Shown here piece by piece: positions 50,678 to 59,326 of a stretch of 64,000 bases of DNA. Under the pieces are notes generated by a model. That model made no database searches, was not told the origin of the DNA, and saw nothing but the letters and a program-made list of their open reading frames with translations. Every line of letters starts with the position of its first letter. Within the stretch, counting starts at the first letter, position 1. The stretch covers positions 6,386,001-6,450,000 of the forward strand of contig CP082844.1 of the NCBI GenBank assembly GCA_019930625.1, read 5' to 3'. The stretch is from Nocardia asteroides. GTDB taxonomy: Bacteria; Actinomycetota; Actinomycetes; Mycobacteriales; Mycobacteriaceae. A program made the position numbers and the translations under genes.

Positions 50678-51619
50678 TCAGACCGATGCCACCGATTCGG
50701 CGAGCACCGTCCGGCCGATCCACGGCAGGACCGCATCCCGGACGCGCACCGTCCGCGGCAGCAGACCGTTTGCGGTCAGCAGATCCGCCGCGTGCTGCTG
50801 CTCGTCCAGGAAATCCTCGGATACGGGTTCGACGCCGAACGGCCTGCCGCGCAGGGCGGCTTCCCACTCGTCCAGGCTCGCGGTGGCGCCACGGGCGATC
50901 GCGTCGTCCACGAAGTACTGGGCGGCCGCTCGCGGGTTCTCCCTGATCCAGGCGTCGGACTGCTGCAAAGCGGTGACGATCGCCGTCAGCGCCGCGCGAT
51001 TGTCTTCGGCGAAGTCCCGGCGGGTGAACCACAGCGAGGGATGGCTGAACAGGGACTCGGTGTCCACGAGGGTCCGCAGCTCGGTGGCCGCCTCGACCGC
51101 CGCGAGACCCGGGTACGCGCCGACCCAGGCGTCCAGGTCACCGCGCAGCAGCGCCGCGCCGCCGTCGTGCACGTCGGTGTCCACCGGCTCGATGTCTCGC
51201 CAGGCAAGTCCCGCGCGGTCCAGCGCGAGCAACGCGAGGGTGGTCTGCCAGGAACCGTGCGCGATGCCGACTCGGTTGCCCTTCAGATCCAACACGGTCT
51301 CGATACCGGAATCGGCCTTGGTGACCAGGCGGCCGTTCTCCACCCGAGGTCCGGAGATGCCGACGTAGACGATGTCGCGCCCGCCCGCGAGTGCGGTCAG
51401 CGGCGGTGTGAAGCCGGTGCCGATGAAGTCGTAGCCTCCGGTGAACAGATGATCCGAATGCGACGACGGCAGTCCCGTCCTCGGGTCGACCGGCGCCGGG
51501 CGGGGCAGGTCACGCAGGTCGACCCATTCCGGATCGGGCAGCAGCTTTTCCAAGATGCCGCGGTGGCGCAGGACGAACAGTGAATTGTTGTGCGGGAAGT
51601 AGCCGACACGAACGGTCAT
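50678..51619 (-). CDS. SsuA/DszB-like protein without signal peptide
   Basis: The 313-residue protein has the fold of periplasmic binding protein type 2, like sulfonate-binding proteins and sulfinate desulfinases: VRVGYFPHNNS at the start, then LKGNRVGIAHGSWQ and a hinge before GDLDAWVGAYPGL. It lacks a signal peptide or lipobox, so it stays in the cytoplasm. At the position of the DszB catalytic Cys it has no cysteine (HNNS). It is the last gene of the sulfur operon, 31 bases after the aldolase gene. It could be an intracellular binder or an enzyme with altered chemistry. Confidence 0.75.
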   Translation of the reverse strand: MTVRVGYFPHNNSLFVLRHRGILEKLLPDPEWVDLRDLPRPAPVDPRTGLPSSHSDHLFTGGYDFIGTGFTPPLTALAGGRDIVYVGISGPRVENGRLVTKADSGIETVLDLKGNRVGIAHGSWQTTLALLALDRAGLAWRDIEPVDTDVHDGGAALLRGDLDAWVGAYPGLAAVEAATELRTLVDTESLFSHPSLWFTRRDFAEDNRAALTAIVTALQQSDAWIRENPRAAAQYFVDDAIARGATASLDEWEAALRGRPFGVEPVSEDFLDEQQHAADLLTANGLLPRTVRVRDAVLPWIGRTVLAESVASV

Positions 51620-51650
51620 GATGGTCCTCGATTTCGGTGGGTGGCGCCGG

Positions 51651-52358
51651 TCAGATCAAGCCGCGTCGGCGGGCTTCGTCGGCGAGTCCGCTGCGGCTCC
51701 ACTGCACCGCCAGGTTGGACGGATCGAATTCGACCGCGCCGCCGAGGGTTTCGGCGATCGCCTGATATTGCGCGCCCTCCTCGAGCAGCACGACGAACTT
51801 CGCCAGCTCCAGCAACCCCGAGCGGCCGATCACGTTCGCGCCGCCGTTCGCTTCGAAGATCGCGACCAGGTCCGGGTCGTCGACCAGCTTCGACAGGATG
51901 AAATCCCCCGCCCCGATGCTGCGATCGATGTGCGGCGGAATCCCCCTGGACAGGGTGAGGCGCTGCGAGGCCGCGTATCGGATCGGCAGCGTGCGGTGAG
52001 TCTGCGCCCATCCGCCCAGCCACGGCGTGTGGATGTGCACCACGGAGGTGATCTCCGGATGCGCGCGGAACACCTTCGCGTAGCCGGTGACGAAGCCGGC
52101 GGAGCCGGTCCCGGACAGCACCTCGCCGTCGAAGGTGGCGATCACCGGCGCGACGGTACGGTCGTCGGCCCACGGCCCCGGCTCGTTCAAGGCGACGGCG
52201 ATCTCCTCGCCCGGCACGCGTTCCACGAAGTTGACGGTGCCGTTGCCGGAAACGGTGCCGGTCTCCCGGAACACTCGGAACGCCTTCTGCGCGTCGCGGG
52301 TGGCGGCGGCGACGAAAGCGGTGACGGACTCCGGCAATCGGGTCTCGGTGGTGGTCAT
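51651..52358 (-). CDS. class II aldolase/adducin family protein
   Basis: The 235-residue protein has the class II aldolase fold. The zinc ligands HIH in VVHIHTPWLGG are present, with an N-terminal GNGTVNF loop corresponding to the phosphate-binding SGN loop and a possible third His later. Members cleave or isomerise phosphorylated sugars and related small molecules. In this operon it would process the carbon skeleton left after sulfur removal; that is inference. The gap to the upstream monooxygenase gene is only 13 bases. Confidence 0.8.
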   Translation of the reverse strand: MTTTETRLPESVTAFVAAATRDAQKAFRVFRETGTVSGNGTVNFVERVPGEEIAVALNEPGPWADDRTVAPVIATFDGEVLSGTGSAGFVTGYAKVFRAHPEITSVVHIHTPWLGGWAQTHRTLPIRYAASQRLTLSRGIPPHIDRSIGAGDFILSKLVDDPDLVAIFEANGGANVIGRSGLLELAKFVVLLEEGAQYQAIAETLGGAVEFDPSNLAVQWSRSGLADEARRRGLI

Positions 52359-52371
52359 TGTCTCTCCTGAA

Positions 52372-53541
52372 TCATCGAGCGGGGGAAAGGGACGTCGCGG
52401 CGGCAGACGCGGTGAGCCGGGACCGGCCGAGCAGTGGAAGCACCTCTTCGCCGACGCGGTAGGCCTCCTCCAGGTGCGGGTTGCCAGCGAGGATGAACGC
52501 GTCGACGCCGAGGTCGATCAGCTCGTCGAGCCGCTGCGCCACCTGCTCGTAGCTGCCGACCAGGCCGAACGCCGGTCCGCCGCGGATCAGGCTGAACCCG
52601 CACCAGACGTTGGGCTGTACTTCCAGGTCGCGGTACCCGGTGATGGTTTCGGGCACCCAGCCCTGGATACGGGCGGCGCCGACCGAATCGCCCTTGGCGG
52701 CCCGCTCGGCCGCGCCGCGGTCGACGAAGGCCCAGCCCTGCTCGATCTCCGCCCAGGCCGCCTCCTCGGTGTGCCGGGCCAGGATGTCGATGCGGACAGC
52801 GAATCTCGGTGTCCGGCCGATCGTCGCGGCGTGTGCGCGCACGCCGTCGAACTTGGCGCGCAGATCGCCGAACGGCTCCAGCCAGGACAGGTAGTAGTCG
52901 GCGTGCTTGCCCGCGGCTTGGACCGCGGCGGCCGAGGACCCCGAGAAGTACACCTCGGGGAACGGCTGCCCGGCGATGCCCGGCGCCAGCGCGGCGCCCT
53001 CGGTGCGGAAGAACCGGCCGTCGTGGTCGTAGGGCTCGCCGTCCCACACACCGCGCAGCACGTCGAGGAATTCGCTGGTGCGCGCGTAGCGATCGTCGTG
53101 CGCCACTTTGTCGCCCCACCACAGCTGGGCGGGCCCGCCGCCGCCGCTGATGATGTTGTAGACCAGCCTGCCACCGGTAGCGCGCTGCAAGCTCGCCGAC
53201 ATCCGCGCCGCCTGCACCGGATGCAGGAAGCCGGGCTGGAAGGCGACCATGAACCGGTAGGTGGTGGTCTCCCCGGCCAGCGCGGCCGCGACCGCCCACG
53301 GGTCGTCGGTCACCGGGAACGACGGCAGCAGGCCGCCGAGGAAACCGGCCGATTCGGAGGCTTTCGCCACCGCCGCCATGTGGTCGATGTAGCCGTAGCC
53401 GTCGAGTGCGCCGCCACGGATGGCGGGGGCGATGTTGCCCGGCCCGTAACCGCCTGCGTGGCCGCGGTTGTATCGGCGCGGGGTGCGCAGCGAGGCGTGG
53501 TCACCCTCCATGCCGATGCGCCAGTAGATGTCGATGGTCAT
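52372..53541 (-). CDS. SsuD-like flavin-dependent monooxygenase
   Basis: The 389-residue protein is a luciferase-like monooxygenase of the alkanesulfonate monooxygenase type: AFQPGFLHPVQAARMSASLQ, GGRLVYNIISGGG, and the C-terminal LVGSYEQVAQRLDELIDLG with the substrate-loop ILAGNPHLEE. Such enzymes use FMNH2 and oxygen to split a C-S bond of sulfonates or sulfones. GGAGG lies before the ATG, which overlaps the stop of the previous gene (ATGA). No flavin reductase is encoded nearby, so reduced flavin must come from elsewhere. Confidence 0.88.
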   Translation of the reverse strand: MTIDIYWRIGMEGDHASLRTPRRYNRGHAGGYGPGNIAPAIRGGALDGYGYIDHMAAVAKASESAGFLGGLLPSFPVTDDPWAVAAALAGETTTYRFMVAFQPGFLHPVQAARMSASLQRATGGRLVYNIISGGGGPAQLWWGDKVAHDDRYARTSEFLDVLRGVWDGEPYDHDGRFFRTEGAALAPGIAGQPFPEVYFSGSSAAAVQAAGKHADYYLSWLEPFGDLRAKFDGVRAHAATIGRTPRFAVRIDILARHTEEAAWAEIEQGWAFVDRGAAERAAKGDSVGAARIQGWVPETITGYRDLEVQPNVWCGFSLIRGGPAFGLVGSYEQVAQRLDELIDLGVDAFILAGNPHLEEAYRVGEEVLPLLGRSRLTASAAATSLSPAR

Positions 53542-54638
53542 GCGGTTACCTCCTGAGCGGTCAGGGTGCGCCCGACCGGGTCGGCGAGGAACAAGAGATG
53601 TTCGCCCGCGCGATGCAGTTCCTCGATGTGCGGGTGCCCCGAGAGCACCACGCTGTCGACGCCTGCCTCGGCGTAGGACGTAAGGCGGTGCGCCACCTGG
53701 GCGTAGCTGCCGACGAGGCCGATGCTCGCGGCGTATCCCAGGTCGGCGAACCCCGACCAGCGGCCGTCGCCCAGATCGTGTTCCCGTGCGCCGGGTCCAT
53801 CCGGGTGCACCTCGCGCCACTGCCGTTCGACGCGCGCCCACGCCTCGTCCTCGGTTTCCCGCGCGATGACCGGCAGCTCCAGTCCAGCCCGTACCGTCCG
53901 TCCCGCCGCCACGGCGCGAGCGCGCAGGGCGCCGATCGCGGTCCGCACGCCCGCCGCGGTCTCGGTGAAGACGTGCACGTCCCCGTGCTGGGCCGAAAGC
54001 TCGAGCGCCGCGGCGGAATCGCCGGACAGGTAGACCGTGGGGAACGGCAGCCCCGACAGGATGCCGCGAAAGCCACCGTCGATCACGTCGTAATGAGCGC
54101 CCGCGTAGTGGAACCCGGTGCCCGCGAATCCCGCCGCGGCCACCGGAGCGTCGTTCCATACGCCGCGGGCGACGGTGAGGAATTCAGCCGCCCTGGCGTA
54201 GCGGTCGTCCCCGGTGACGCAATCGCCGCGGGTCCGGGCGTCGGCGGGGTCGGTGTCCACGGCCGGCCGCCATGCCAGGCGTCCGCCCGAAATACGTTGC
54301 AGGGTCGCGGACATCTTCGCGGCGTAGACCGGTGTCCCGAAGGCGGGCTGGAATTCGACGACGACGCGGGAGTATCGCGTGCCGCGCAGCGCGCCGCCCG
54401 CGACGATCCACGATTCCTCGCCGTCCGGGTCGTAGGGCGCGAGCACCCCGTCCAGTCCGGCCAGTTCGGCGGCATCGATGATCTGGGCGAGGTCGTCGAA
54501 CGGGCCGTACCGTCCCGGTCGCGGGTCGGTCGCGGGTGTCCCCGGCACGGGTCCGCCGAAGCCGCCGCGGTTGCGCTGTCGCGGTCGGGCGTGGCGGCCG
54601 TCGCCGCGGGAAGGCAAACGCCACAGGAACTCCGTCAT
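53538..54638 (-). CDS. second SsuD-like flavin-dependent monooxygenase
   Basis: The 366-residue protein is another luciferase-like monooxygenase, related to the next gene: EFQPAFGTPVYAAKMSATLQ, ISGGRLAWRPAVDTD, and LVGSYAQVAHRLTSYAEAG then LSGHPHIEEL. It is shorter and more divergent at the N-terminus. Its start overlaps the stop of the desulfinase gene and its stop overlaps the start of the first monooxygenase (both ATGA), so the three proteins are likely made in balanced amounts. The two enzymes could act in sequence on one organosulfur compound. Confidence 0.86.
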   Translation of the reverse strand: MTEFLWRLPSRGDGRHARPRQRNRGGFGGPVPGTPATDPRPGRYGPFDDLAQIIDAAELAGLDGVLAPYDPDGEESWIVAGGALRGTRYSRVVVEFQPAFGTPVYAAKMSATLQRISGGRLAWRPAVDTDPADARTRGDCVTGDDRYARAAEFLTVARGVWNDAPVAAAGFAGTGFHYAGAHYDVIDGGFRGILSGLPFPTVYLSGDSAAALELSAQHGDVHVFTETAAGVRTAIGALRARAVAAGRTVRAGLELPVIARETEDEAWARVERQWREVHPDGPGAREHDLGDGRWSGFADLGYAASIGLVGSYAQVAHRLTSYAEAGVDSVVLSGHPHIEELHRAGEHLLFLADPVGRTLTAQEVTA

Positions 54639-55660
54639 GCGGGCACCCGCCCGGACTCGACGAGTTCCCTGGCCCGGGCCAGCGGTTCGGGCGCGATCCA
54701 GGAGTCCAGGTCGAAATCGGCGGCGAGGAAACCGTGTGTGTAGAGGAAGTGCTTCTGCACGCCGAGCAGCTCGATCCGCTCTTCCGACAGCGAGGGGTGC
54801 AGGTCGCGGTGGAAGTTCTCGCCGTACGCCGCGACGACACCCTCCGGGCCGGACAGCGTTTCCCGTTGCAGCACCTCCCGCACCCCGTGCAAATCGCCCG
54901 CGGCCCAGTCCGCCGCCCGCAGACTCTGCGCGAGGAACTCCACGACCACCTCCGGACGCGCCTGGAGCAAGTCGGCGTGCACGGTGATCGGGCGGGGGGT
55001 GCCGTTGTTGACCCGCGAGCGTTTGGCGTCGGTGGCGTCCAGATCCACGGCGACGCGCAGACCGTGCTCTCGCGCGACTTCCTGAGCGCGGGCGCCCTTG
55101 ACGTAGACGGCGTCCACTTCGCCGCGCAGCAGTTCCTCGACACCCCAGGTGACGGCGCGCCGGTTCGCCTGGACTTCGGTGCGCACCTGCGGGTTCCGCT
55201 CGACGCCGAGTTCGACGATGGTCACGTCGGCCAGGGTGTGTCCACCGAGCCGCAGTGCGTTCGCGAAGCCGTGCAGGGCCATCGCCCGGGGGAAGCTGCG
55301 CGCCTGGTCCTGTGCCCACGCGGGAACGCCGACGCGCAGCCCGGTCAGCTCGGCGGGGCCGCCGACCGTCGAGTCCGGACCGACCAGAATGGCCTGTGCC
55401 TCATCGATCCAGGTCAATCCGATCAAACGGGTCGGCGACCCCTGTGCGCGCGCCGCGAGGGCCGGAACGTTGCCGCCCTCCCGGATCAGCCCGGACAGGT
55501 CGTGCAGGAAGTGGTGGCCGGCCAGCTCCGGTCCAGCGTCCTGGAGGACGCCGAAGTCGAGCCCGGCCCGCGTGGCGGTATCGCCGAGCCAGCCGAGGCT
55601 GTGCGCGAGCCCGCTCGCGGTCGGAACCGGGCAACGGGTGTACCAGAGGGTGTCGGTCAT
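54635..55660 (-). CDS. DszB-like sulfinate desulfinase
   Basis: The 341-residue protein aligns with DszB, the 2'-hydroxybiphenyl-2-sulfinate desulfinase of the Rhodococcus 4S pathway. The catalytic Cys of DszB (YSNCPVPN) appears as YTRCPVPT near residue 10; its other active residues appear as His in GHHFLHD and Arg in IREGGN. There is no signal peptide. The rest has a type 2 binding-protein fold, as in DszB. It should release sulfite from an aromatic or alkyl sulfinate. AAGGAG lies before the ATG, and both ends overlap neighbours by ATGA. The exact substrate is unknown; the homology is strong in the active site but distant overall. Confidence 0.72.
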   Translation of the reverse strand: MTDTLWYTRCPVPTASGLAHSLGWLGDTATRAGLDFGVLQDAGPELAGHHFLHDLSGLIREGGNVPALAARAQGSPTRLIGLTWIDEAQAILVGPDSTVGGPAELTGLRVGVPAWAQDQARSFPRAMALHGFANALRLGGHTLADVTIVELGVERNPQVRTEVQANRRAVTWGVEELLRGEVDAVYVKGARAQEVAREHGLRVAVDLDATDAKRSRVNNGTPRPITVHADLLQARPEVVVEFLAQSLRAADWAAGDLHGVREVLQRETLSGPEGVVAAYGENFHRDLHPSLSEERIELLGVQKHFLYTHGFLAADFDLDSWIAPEPLARARELVESGRVPA

Positions 55661-56436
55661 GGGGCACTCCTTGGAGCGGGCGTGGTGTGACCCACGCCGA
55701 GCTGGGTGAGGAAAAGGGATCGGTAGCGCAGGGTCTCGGGGTCGGCGCGGTCGCGCGGGTGGGCCACGTCGATGTCGACATCCACGGCGAAGCGCCCGTT
55801 GTCCAGGATCAGCACCCGGTCGGCCAACCGGATCGCCTCGTCGACGTCGTGGGTCACCATCAGTACCGCGGGACGGTGCCGGGCGACGAGGTCGCCGACC
55901 AGATCCTGCATCTGCAAGCGGGTCAGCGCGTCCAGCGCCGCGAACGGCTCGTCGAGCAGCAACAGTTCGGGGTCGCGCACGAGGGCGCGAGCCAACGCAG
56001 CGCGCTGCGCTTCGCCGCCGGAGAGTGTGGCAGGCCACTGCCGGGCTTTGCCGACGAGGTTGACCTCGGCGAGCGCACGCAGTCCCGCTTCCCGGTTGTG
56101 CCGGGACCGGCGCTGCCCGACGATGACGTTCGCCAGCACCCGTTTCGAAGGGATCAACCGCGGCTCCTGGTACACGGTGGTGCGCCTGCCGGGGACGAGC
56201 ACCTCCCCTGCGTCCGGCGCTTCGAGTCCGGTGAGCAGGCGCAGCAGCGTGGTCTTGCCGGTGCCGCTGGGCCCGAGCAGGACGACGAACTCGCCGCGCC
56301 GGATGGTCAGATCGGCGCCGTCGAGAACCGTCTTGTCGCCGAAGGACTTCCGCAGGCCGGTGATCGATACCGCGACCGGTTCGGTCGGCGCGGGCGCGGT
56401 GGTCAGCTCCGCTCCGGGTTCGGTGACGGCGGTCAT
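55657..56436 (-). CDS. sulfonate-type ABC transporter ATPase (SsuB-like)
   Basis: The 259-residue ATPase has Walker A GPSGTGKTT, the signature LSGGEAQRAALARAL, Walker B LLLLDEPFAALD and the switch His in VTHDVDEA. It energises uptake of sulfonate, nitrate or taurine-like solutes. It overlaps the permease gene upstream and the desulfinase gene downstream by four bases each. The N-terminal 25 residues are a Pro/Ala-rich extension. Its position confirms that import and desulfonation form one operon. Confidence 0.92.
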   Translation of the reverse strand: MTAVTEPGAELTTAPAPTEPVAVSITGLRKSFGDKTVLDGADLTIRRGEFVVLLGPSGTGKTTLLRLLTGLEAPDAGEVLVPGRRTTVYQEPRLIPSKRVLANVIVGQRRSRHNREAGLRALAEVNLVGKARQWPATLSGGEAQRAALARALVRDPELLLLDEPFAALDALTRLQMQDLVGDLVARHRPAVLMVTHDVDEAIRLADRVLILDNGRFAVDVDIDVAHPRDRADPETLRYRSLFLTQLGVGHTTPAPRSAP

Positions 56437-57272
56437 CGGATCGCCACCTGTCCGCGCCATGGCATCGCGAAGCGCTCCGCCAGCCGAACCAGCCCGTCGA
56501 AGACCAGACCGAGCAGCGCGTACAACACGACACACAGCACCATGTAGTCCGTGCGGTTGTACTCCTGGGCCAAGGTGACCAGGTAGCCCACACCCTCCCT
56601 GGTGCCGACCTGTTCGGCAGCGATGAGACCGGTGATGCTGATGGACAAGCACACCCGCAGCGCCATCAGCACCCCGGGCAGCGCCGAAGGCAGGACGACC
56701 TCCAGCACCAGCCGCGGGCCCGCCAGCCCGAAACCGCGGGCGGCCTCGACCATCTTGCGGTCGACGTTGCGGACGCCGAGGTAGGTGTACGCGTACATCG
56801 GCGCGACCGTCGCGACGGCGATGAGCAGCACCTTGTACAGCTCGTCGATGCCGAACCAGGCGATGAACAGCGGCACCAGCGCGAGGAACGGCACCGCGCG
56901 CAGGATCTGCATGGTCGAGTCGACCAGTTCCTCACCGAGGCCGGACAACCCGGACAGCAGCCCGAGCGTCAACCCGATGGCCACGCCGATGCCGACGCCG
57001 AGCGCGGCGCGCACGAACGACGCGACCGCGAAGTCGACCAGCTGGCCGGTGCCGAGCAGCTCGGTGAATGCCGTCCACACGGCGGGCGGGCCCGCCAGTA
57101 CACGCTCGGAGAGTGCTCCGGTCGCGGAGCCCACCCACCAACCGGCCACGATCACTGCCGGAAGCAGGAACCGTAACGGCACCGAGAACCAAGTGGGCCT
57201 GCGCTTTCCGGCGCGGCTACGGGGCGGGGCGAGCTCGGTGGGCCCCGGCCCCGCCGCGGCGATCACCGCCAT
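56433..57272 (-). CDS. sulfonate-type ABC transporter permease (SsuC-like)
   Basis: The 279-residue protein has about six membrane spans and the inner-membrane permease EAA-like loop (VEAARGFGLAGPRLVLEVVLPSALPG) that contacts the ATPase. An N-terminal cytoplasmic extension of about 30 residues is basic. It forms the channel of the SsuABC-type importer. One base separates it from the binding-protein gene; it overlaps the ATPase gene. Confidence 0.92.
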   Translation of the reverse strand: MAVIAAAGPGPTELAPPRSRAGKRRPTWFSVPLRFLLPAVIVAGWWVGSATGALSERVLAGPPAVWTAFTELLGTGQLVDFAVASFVRAALGVGIGVAIGLTLGLLSGLSGLGEELVDSTMQILRAVPFLALVPLFIAWFGIDELYKVLLIAVATVAPMYAYTYLGVRNVDRKMVEAARGFGLAGPRLVLEVVLPSALPGVLMALRVCLSISITGLIAAEQVGTREGVGYLVTLAQEYNRTDYMVLCVVLYALLGLVFDGLVRLAERFAMPWRGQVAIR

Positions 57273-57273
57273 C

Positions 57274-58314
57274 TCAGCTGCCCGCCTGGACCGATGCCAG
57301 CTGCTCGGGCGTCAGCTTGGACTTCAGGTCGTAGAAGATGTCCGCGGCGGTGATCCTGCGGGTGATGACGCCGTTGTCGAAGAAGGTGTTCACCACGTCG
57401 GCCAAGGCGGCGGCGTCCGCCTCGTTCGGCAGGTGCGGCACGGTGGCCTCGGCGCCGACCCGGTGGGCGTCCGACAGCCGCTGGCCCGACAGCGCGCGCG
57501 GACCGGTCTTCTCGAAGACGTTCTCGAACTCGGCCGGGTTGGCCCGTTGCTTCACCGACAGACCCTGCAGCACTTCGAGATACTTCGCCGCCACGTCCGG
57601 GCGCTGCTCGAGCACCTCGGTGCGGAACACGACGACCGTATTGTCGTTGGAGCCGATACTCTTCTCGGTGGCGATCTCGACACCGCCGTTGGCCTTGGCC
57701 TCCTGGTAGGGCACCAGGAACGACGCCCAGCCGTCCACCTTGCCGGTCGCGAACGCCGAAGCGGCGTCCTTCTGTTGCAGCGGAACCCGCGTCACTTTGT
57801 CGGCCGGGACCCCTGCCTGCGCGAGCGCCTTGAGCAGGATGTACTCGCCCTTGGCGGCGGGATTCACCGCGACGCGCTTGCCGACCAGCTCGGCGACCGA
57901 ACGCACGCCCGATTCCGGAGCCACGATGATGCCGCTCTGATCCTTCCCCGCCGGATCCTGTACCGCGACGATCCGCACGCCAACGTCCTTGGACAGCGCG
58001 CCGACGACGGGGCTGAACGCCGCGCCGGACACGTCGAGTTCTCCGGTGTTGAACAGCTTCAGGTTCGAGCTGAAGCCGGGGGTGATACCGACCCACTCGA
58101 TCTTCGCGCCGAGCGGCGCCAGCGCGGCGTCGAAGGTTCCGTCGCGCTTGCCGACCGCCAACGGCCCGGAGTTCCCGGGATCGGCGACCTTCAGCACGAA
58201 AGAGGCTCCCGCGCCGGTGTCGTCGTCGGCGTCCGAACCACACGCGGCGACGAGTGCGACTAAGGGAACGATCGCTAGCGCGATGCGCATGAGGGCTTGC
58301 CGCCTGCGGGACAT
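57274..58314 (-). CDS. lipoprotein substrate-binding protein of the SsuABC-like importer
   Basis: The 346-residue protein starts with a lipoprotein signal (MSRRRQALMR, hydrophobic core, lipobox VAAC with Cys25), so it is anchored outside the membrane. The mature part is a type 2 solute-binding protein of the SsuA/TauA kind (FNTGELDVSGAAFSPVVGAL, GKRVAVNPAAKGEYILLKAL). It captures the organosulfur substrate. It is the first gene of the operon, and both IclR-type operators lie between it and the iclR gene. Confidence 0.9.
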   Translation of the reverse strand: MSRRRQALMRIALAIVPLVALVAACGSDADDDTGAGASFVLKVADPGNSGPLAVGKRDGTFDAALAPLGAKIEWVGITPGFSSNLKLFNTGELDVSGAAFSPVVGALSKDVGVRIVAVQDPAGKDQSGIIVAPESGVRSVAELVGKRVAVNPAAKGEYILLKALAQAGVPADKVTRVPLQQKDAASAFATGKVDGWASFLVPYQEAKANGGVEIATEKSIGSNDNTVVVFRTEVLEQRPDVAAKYLEVLQGLSVKQRANPAEFENVFEKTGPRALSGQRLSDAHRVGAEATVPHLPNEADAAALADVVNTFFDNGVITRRITAADIFYDLKSKLTPEQLASVQAGS

Positions 58315-58390: not shown

Positions 58391-58411
58391 GCTTTCCGTA
58401 GATCGGAAAGC
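58391..58411. promoter_or_regulatory. IclR-type operator 1
   Basis: Perfect 8-base arms GCTTTCCG and CGGAAAGC with a five-base spacer, 77 bases upstream of the binding-protein start. Shares the pattern CTTTCC-N7-GGAAAG with the second site 118 bases away. Confidence 0.7.
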
Positions 58412-58509: not shown

Positions 58510-58528
58510 CTTTCCAAATATCGGAAAG
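58510..58528. promoter_or_regulatory. IclR-type operator 2
   Basis: CTTTCC and GGAAAG with a seven-base spacer, just after TTGACC (58495-58500) in the likely iclR promoter, 42 bases upstream of its start. This position would allow autorepression. Confidence 0.7.
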
Positions 58529-58570: not shown

Positions 58571-59326
58571 GTGGAACCCTCCGGCGTGCAGACCGTCACC
58601 CGCGCTCTCTCGGTCTTGGACTGCTTCCGCGACGGCCGGGAGCGCGGCGTCTCGGAGGTGGCGCGGCAGCAGGGCCTGGCGGTGAGCACCACGCATCGCC
58701 TGCTGGCCACGCTCGTGCAGGCGGGATTCTTGGAGAAGAACGCCGAATCCAGCAGGTATCGCATGGGCGGCGCACTGGCGGAGTGGGGACAGATCGCCTA
58801 CCGCCAGCACCGGATCTACCTCGCCGAACCGTATCTGGAACACCTCGCGGGCACCACCGGCGCCAGTTGCTCGGTCGCCACCCGCCACGGGATCCACGCC
58901 GTACTGCTCGGCACCAGCCGGTGGCGGGAGACCGACGGGCACGCGCTCCAAGGCGTACGCCTGCCCCTGCACGCCAGCGCGCTCGGCAAGGCGCTGCTGG
59001 CCTGGTCCGAGGCCACCGACGAGCAGCTGCGCGAGCTGCCTTACGACGAAGGGACCGAGCGCTCGGTGTCCGGGCCGGACGAGCTGCGCGCGGAACTGGT
59101 CACCACGCGCGAGCGCGGGTACGCCTACAACGACGAGGAACTCGATCCCGGATTCCGCACCATCGGGCTGCCCATCCTCGACCCGGCGGGCCGCTGCCGG
59201 TTCGCGCTGGGTCTGCGCGGCCCCACGACGTTGATGATTCCCGAACGCGTGCCGTTCTTCGTCGAACTCGCGAAGGTCACCGCACAGGAGATCTCGGCCG
59301 GATTCGCCGCCGCCGACCAGGTCTGA
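58571..59326 (+). CDS. IclR family regulator of the sulfur operon
   Basis: The 251-residue protein has an N-terminal winged helix (SEVARQQGLAVSTTHRLLATL) and the C-terminal effector domain of IclR regulators (HASALGKALLAW, RGYAYNDEELDPGFRTIGLPI). It is divergent from the organosulfur operon and separated by 256 bases that contain two matching operators. It most likely represses the operon until a sulfonate-related effector or sulfur limitation is sensed; the effector is unknown. The GTG start gives the whole domain. Confidence 0.9.
   Translation: MEPSGVQTVTRALSVLDCFRDGRERGVSEVARQQGLAVSTTHRLLATLVQAGFLEKNAESSRYRMGGALAEWGQIAYRQHRIYLAEPYLEHLAGTTGASCSVATRHGIHAVLLGTSRWRETDGHALQGVRLPLHASALGKALLAWSEATDEQLRELPYDEGTERSVSGPDELRAELVTTRERGYAYNDEELDPGFRTIGLPILDPAGRCRFALGLRGPTTLMIPERVPFFVELAKVTAQEISAGFAAADQV

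Follow-up and report, generated by a model that had tools for sequence, protein, structure and literature searches.

The eight-gene cluster and its distribution

This work concerns a gene cluster in a 64,000-nt window of the 7.4 Mb genome of Nocardia asteroides (assembly GCA_019930625.1, contig CP082844.1, positions 6,386,001 to 6,450,000), where eight genes, here called A to H, follow one another on the minus strand from position 58314 to 50678 and form an operon that probably lets the cell obtain sulfur from an organosulfur compound under sulfate shortage (Table 1). Its central member is D, a candidate desulfinase of the DszB family, which lies between the genes of an importer and those of two proteins of the luciferase-like monooxygenase (LLM) family. 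The original prediction made for this DNA had described an SsuABC-like importer coupled by ATGA overlaps to a DszB-like protein, two SsuD-like monooxygenases and a class II aldolase, and had read the whole as import, oxidation in two steps and release of sulfite; what it observed at the level of the genes is confirmed, and its interpretation is supported in part. ATGA overlaps were found at B/C, C/D, D/E and E/F, but A/B, F/G and G/H are separated by short gaps of 1, 13 and 31 nt. The predicted importer agrees with matches of A, B and C to SsuA-, SsuC- and SsuB-type models: A scores 119.7 bits against the SsuA_fam model, under the cut-off of 163.5, and the top NCBIfam models of B and C are SsuC (212.6 bits, cut-off 347) and the aliphatic sulfonate ATPase (219.9 bits, cut-off 395). 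A hydrophobic leader with a lipobox-like motif is present in 82 of 83 orthologues of A.

Table 1. Genes of the operon, its divergent regulator gene and the putative operators (positions in the 64,000-nt window)
Feature	Description	Position	Strand	Match or remark
A	SsuA-like substrate-binding lipoprotein, 346 aa	57274..58314	-	NMT1 PF09084, E 7.4e-15
B	SsuC-like permease, 279 aa	56433..57272	-	PF00528, E 1.4e-28
C	SsuB-like ATPase, 259 aa	55657..56436	-	PF00005, E 1.2e-27
D	Candidate DszB-family desulfinase, 341 aa, leaderless	54635..55660	-	T8, C10, H50, R60, G63
E	Diverged LLM-family protein, 366 aa	53538..54638	-	PF00296, E 2.1e-34
F	SsuD-like LLM monooxygenase, 389 aa	52372..53541	-	PF00296, E 4.2e-57
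G	Class II aldolase/adducin homologue, 235 aa	51651..52358	-	PF00596, 31.2 bits (cut-off 22.2)
H	Leaderless SsuA-like protein, 313 aa, predicted cytoplasmic	50678..51619	-	
iclR	IclR-family regulator, divergent from the operon	58571..59326	+	PF01614 and PF09339
Operator 1 (putative)	CTTTCC-N7-GGAAAG	58392..58410	.	Begins 96 nt before the start of A
Operator 2 (putative)	Same palindrome, CTTTCC-N7-GGAAAG	58510..58528	.	Ends 42 nt before the start of iclR

A scan of genome contigs yielded 461 confirmed relatives of D; the best 80 of them were fetched with their surroundings, a choice that biases the comparison towards close relatives. Among these 80 loci, 77 carry A to F, G where present, and H contiguously and in the same order, and the remaining three (L026, L028 and L084) end at contig edges, the part left keeping that order. 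The same gene order, which the original prediction had proposed to search for, thus recurs across Actinomycetota, and the conserved arrangement is more than chance. Its hosts belong to Nocardia, Rhodococcus (including R. qingshengii IEGM 1359, L062), Prescottella, Williamsia, Gordonia, Tsukamurella, Amycolatopsis, Pseudonocardia, Sphaerisporangium, Actinomadura, Nonomuraea and Planotetraspora. Genome surveys, which scored part of the candidates (10, 14 or 5 per genome, depending on the survey) and give lower bounds, placed matches to D in at least 65 of 150 genomes of the genus of the window, 59 of them at an identity of at least 76% (the window's own genome included) and 6 at 52-53%, and a close D in at least 5 of 59 genomes of a genus inferred to be Gordonia; evenly drawn samples gave any match to D, several of them weak, in at least 7 of 200 genomes of the order and at least 8 of 396 of the phylum. 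Over the 80 loci, mean pairwise identity is lowest for E (62.5%), followed by 63.3% for A and 82.4% for F. In a distant clade (L122 and L123), D comes first, and A, B, C, H and an LLM are retained; E is shortened to 179 aa in L122 and was not found in L123.

Some loci carry additional genes. In L122, which belongs to this distant clade and comes from the genus of the window, a gene for an M20 peptidase/amidohydrolase lies between the ATPase gene and the truncated E (L122:3381-5439), and may hint at an amide-conjugated sulfur substrate. In the Gordonia locus L117, whose D and F are about 72% and about 84% identical to those of the window, the iclR gene and the operon are separated by a gene (L117:11899-15759) for a 1286-aa protein that combines two transmembrane and two ATPase regions of ABC type, and two additional ATPase matches occur at the corresponding place in L068, L070, L073, L074 and L075.

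The putative desulfinase and its partner proteins

The assignment of D starts from a phmmer alignment with DszB (PDB 2de2, E 2.9e-18), in which C10 of the motif YTRCPVPT, H50 of GHHF and R60 of IREGG fall on C27, H60 and R70 of DszB and G63 on G73; T8 stands where DszB has S25, with the hydroxyl retained. C10, H50, R60 and G63 are present in all 88 aligned rows. The three DszB active residues claimed for D were thus recovered, and no departure from the Cys/His/Arg set of DszB was seen, the sequence alignment matching and DszB being the best fold. In the fold comparison, D is closer to DszB than to sulfonate-binding proteins, DszB leading by 7.9 Z units, and the opposite was obtained for H. The mechanism of DszB and the roles of its active-site residues are described in two papers (PMC6100217; PMC12168087). 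None of the 84 orthologues of D has a secretion leader, and each of the 84 has exactly one cysteine, which must be C10 because C10 is invariant; the retention of this one cysteine in a protein otherwise depleted in sulfur argues for catalysis by D. With fold and active-site residues alike, D and DszB share an identity of 26-28%, and the orthologues of D carry E61, W84, K188, N218 and R223 (84 of 88 rows each), which are lacking in the DszB relative of locus L115; the LLM partner also differs, since that of D does not belong to the DszA family. From the fold and the residues we infer that D would act as a DszB-type desulfinase, and the one-cysteine D proteins offer clean material for tests of the DszB mechanism.

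Concerning the LLM pair, the nearest PDB matches of F are MsuD and SsuD (E 8.2e-67), and it scores 270.2 bits against the SsuD model, compared with 162.9 for E and a cut-off of 518.2. Six positions (C54, W196, R226, H228, R297 and Y331) are taken here to have catalytic roles in SsuD. F keeps R226, R297 and W196 in 82 of 83 loci and has T for C54, D for H228, and N or V for Y331 (81 of 83 loci each), so that F as a plain SsuD was rejected on these last three changes. E has G for C54 in all 82 loci and P for H228 in 81, keeps R226 in only 14 of 82, and shows F or L for W196 (82 of 82) and G, A or T for R297 (81 of 82). The two proteins are 36% identical; in the tree each forms one side of a branch with support of 100/100, and the separation of E and F together from SsuD reaches only 83/77. 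The presence of two SsuD-like monooxygenases, as originally claimed, therefore holds for F and fails for E, which has lost most of the SsuD catalytic residues and for this reason probably provides no second oxidation step, and the two-step oxidation is weakened to that extent. LuxB, beside LuxA, is a decayed partner next to an active homologue, and by analogy we propose E as a decayed, non-catalytic partner of F.

Proteins of the DszB family adjoin LLMs of three subfamilies, namely the NtaA/DszA type (L115), the SfnG type (L118) and the SsuD-like type of the present operon. L115 has a true DszB (451 bits), whose DszA scores 491.7 bits against TIGR03860. Both DszA and SfnG convert a sulfone to a sulfinate, according to the literature. 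Since these neighbours of DszB-family proteins make sulfinates, the simplest inference is that F would make the sulfinate used by D. None of the eight operon genes matches a flavin reductase model, and a search for PF01613, which did not extend to SsuE-type reductases of other families, returned eight genes in the genome and none in the window.

Two arrangements were observed alongside. The DszA-DszB pair at L115:5036-10317 is followed downstream by an IS30-family transposase gene. At L118:8034-10180 and in L119, of a genus inferred to be Gordonia, an SfnG-type LLM (the LLM family was tested for L118) forms a compact pair with a DszB-family protein encoded after it, which is about 30% identical to D and has the same C/H/R-GG signature, and this pair is possibly a separate sulfone-to-sulfite module.

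G and H complete the operon. The third metal-binding histidine of class II aldolases lies in an HG motif, a role that we take from FucA and AraD. In G, H108 and H110 are kept in at least 95% of the sequences, but the third position is a glycine (G172) in all 103 rows, aligned with H165 of the aldolase 8iqa, and G is absent without replacement from 13 of 77 complete loci. The class II aldolase of the original prediction stands as a family match above the cut-off, but a metal ligand is missing and the gene is dispensable; G would appear to be an accessory protein with an incomplete metal site. Of 82 orthologues of H, 80 are free of cysteine and 81 of internal methionine; the protein probably stays in the cytoplasm and binds a substrate or an intermediate.

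Sulfur economy and probable local regulation

The eight proteins contain 21 methionine and cysteine residues in 2520 (0.83%, start methionines excluded), compared with 2.45% in 172 control genes taken from a GC-frame heuristic gene call that covers 56% of 400 kb, and the lowest value among 40 runs of eight consecutive control genes was 1.53%. Within the operon of the window the depletion is strongest in G and H, which have none of either residue. Such a scarcity of sulfur amino acids suggests that the operon is expressed when sulfur is limiting.

In 65 of the 80 loci a divergently oriented iclR relative lies upstream of A, and in 60 of them it is the immediate neighbour of A. The two copies of the palindrome between iclR and A (Table 1) are the only perfect ones in the genome, where three more places differ by one mismatch; a reversed control pattern occurs at four places with at most one mismatch. 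Among 84 loci, 61 had a usable intergenic region (50-600 nt), and a filter on shared 8-mers left 46, which are partly dereplicated. The exact form TTTCC-N7-GGAAA is present in 39 of these 46 regions, compared with a mean of 0.02 and a maximum of 1 in 200 Markov resamples that ignore kinship, and the 12-base form with at most two mismatches gives one or two sites in all 46. Because the palindromes are nearly confined to the iclR-A region and are conserved in the intergenic regions, the regulator looks like a local one and not like a global sulfur regulator, and its dedicated palindromes provide a ready reporter for the natural inducer. A promoter scan gave nothing above chance, and a literature search returned no paper joining sulfonate, IclR, Rhodococcus and sulfur starvation.

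A proposed sulfinate route, its alternatives and known systems

We consider it probable that these genes constitute an IclR-controlled sulfur-scavenging operon, in which the importer feeds F, perhaps together with E, and the resulting sulfinate passes to D for the release of sulfite. As the SsuABC similarity suggests, A, B and C would take up an organosulfur anion. F, as an FMNH2-dependent LLM supplied by a flavin reductase encoded elsewhere and perhaps complexed with E, would cut one C-S bond to leave a sulfinate. In the cytoplasm, C10 of D, backed by H50 and T8 and with R60 and G63 holding the sulfinate, would then yield sulfite and a sulfur-free product, with H probably binding substrate or intermediate and G in an accessory part. 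The IclR protein would bind the two palindromes seen in the divergent promoter region. A more detailed version is only tentative: E and F, one homologue decayed and the other active and both encoded in tandem, may form a heterodimer like LuxA/LuxB whose substrate, a polar sulfone or arylsulfonate of soil, is opened to the sulfinate for D, H may be the carrier between importer and enzymes, and the benzothiophene activity of Gordonia considered below may be a side activity of this natural pathway.

Several points weigh against the proposed route. In L123, no E was found, and the LLM, which shares only 38% identity with F, retains H228 and clusters with SsuD/MsuD in the tree (support 94/91); this partner of a D relative may therefore be a plain sulfonate monooxygenase, which lowers our confidence. 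The depletion of sulfur amino acids is less distinctive for single genes, since 8 of the 172 controls are as poor in methionine and cysteine as D and 7 of the 77 controls of 230-450 aa have at most two such residues, and B is not depleted. The remaining points concern the bdsABC cluster reported from Gordonia terrae C-6, whose orthology with the present operon would rest on order and annotation. Oxidation of benzothiophene itself by bdsABC would require E or F to act on sulfur as well, and no DszC-type gene here accounts for this; moreover, an ABC importer fits this reported substrate badly, as benzothiophene should need none. Finally, when the two primers given in PMC3868597 were compared with five long operon loci of Gordonia (L070, L073-L075 and L117), neither matched any of them: there were at least six mismatches, no better than controls. 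The forward primer has no site with two or fewer mismatches in the 59 genomes inferred to be Gordonia, where the sole site with three is not in a desulfinase frame, and no acceptable match was found in L096-L113 (pieces of 3-4 kb, in which the reverse site is possibly beyond reach) or in nine longer stretches. Likewise, the N-terminus of D and the C-terminus of F in six Gordonia/Williamsia loci do not encode the primer ends, and a search with the Gordonia D protein gave no entry labelled C-6 among the best 120 matches. Because the primers match no Gordonia locus examined, orthology with bdsABC is unproved.

The alternative that survives best, although we regard it as unlikely, is a benzothiophene operon of a 4S-like kind, as claimed for G. 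terrae C-6, in which E would be the S-oxygenase in the role of DszC, F the sulfone monooxygenase in that of DszA and D the desulfinase, and the importer would serve thiophenes or their metabolites. It overlaps the sulfinate route in the steps of F and D, and the two are not mutually exclusive. According to PMC3868597, Escherichia coli extracts with bdsABC together with DszD, NADH and FMN turned benzothiophene into o-hydroxystyrene, and order and annotation agree in all eight genes. However, E without most of the SsuD catalytic residues would make a poor S-oxygenase, and it is truncated or not found in the distant clade, where D, H and an LLM persist. In addition, the importer is polar, the occurrence of D relatives in the genus of the window seems broader than expected of a fuel-thiophene trait, and the primer mismatch leaves the identity with bdsABC unproved.

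It is also conceivable, though doubtful, that two routes run in parallel without a pathway link, F being a true sulfonate monooxygenase that releases sulfite directly and D handling sulfinates brought in by the same transporter. The SsuABC-like importer, the proximity of F to MsuD/SsuD in the PDB with R226 and R297 kept, and the grouping of the L123 LLM with these enzymes are consistent with this idea; on the other hand, F is changed at C54, H228 and Y331 in nearly all loci, and the desulfinase partners in L115 and L118 are sulfinate-making LLM types, which points to a linked reaction. Very improbable is a non-catalytic D, a leaderless binding protein like H that would leave sulfite release to F only, since its exclusive match to NMT1/SsuA-type family models and the name "ABC transporter substrate-binding protein", borne by most of the named entries among 120 D relatives listed, stand against the DszB active-site positions, the single cysteine kept against the depletion, and a best fold match to DszB where H behaves the other way round. 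By those names, a putative desulfinase widespread in actinomycetes would be wrongly labelled as a substrate-binding protein. If D releases sulfite from sulfinates, as the sulfinate route proposes, DszB chemistry would be a general soil sulfur trait, with fuel desulfurization as one offshoot.

In relation to known systems, the view that the operon is neither a classic dszABC nor ssuEADCB is upheld by the family cut-offs and the missing genes. In dszABC, the desulfinase stands beside an LLM of the NtaA/DszA family, whereas F and E reach only 86.2 and 46.4 bits against TIGR03860 (cut-off 279.7), and none of the eight genes corresponds to the acyl-CoA dehydrogenase-like DszC. With ssuEADCB the operon has in common the importer and an SsuD-like LLM, but it lacks the flavin reductase gene, adds a desulfinase, and its LLMs lie below the SsuD equivalog cut-off with catalytic residues changed. 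Either label, dszABC or ssu, was rejected on the family cut-offs.

Closer parallels have been reported. In Rhodococcus qingshengii IGTS8, peg4799, 4801, 4802, 4804 and 4806 rise in dibenzothiophene culture, and in IGTS8_peg4799-4806 the annotations SsuA, SsuB, SsuA/DszB, SsuD and SsuA at positions 1, 3, 4, 6 and 8 fit A, C, D, F and H, a likeness of annotation and not of sequence; Table 1 of PMC8557817 describes this cluster only as "sulfur acquisition" and "alkanesulfonate transporter". The name bdsABC is also used for Bacillus enzymes, and the draft genome paper of G. terrae C-6 states that only one cluster of this strain has a desulfinase gene. The bdsABC cluster of C-6, GTC6_01585-01620, comprises eight tags in steps of five for a substrate-binding protein, a hypothetical protein, an alkanesulfonate monooxygenase (bdsC), an FMNH2-dependent monooxygenase (bdsB), a desulfinase (bdsA), an ATPase, a permease and a substrate-binding protein, and RNA-seq showed all eight to be induced 92- to 188-fold when benzothiophene replaced sulfate (PMC3868597). 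The accessible part of that paper holds nothing on the IclR palindromes, the leaderless substrate-binding protein or the lost residues of E. Read from H to A, the present operon has the same order and annotation, a match for which sequence identity with KC831580 is unproved. The operon is therefore not a new kind of system, as its order matches that of a reported benzothiophene-desulfurizing cluster.

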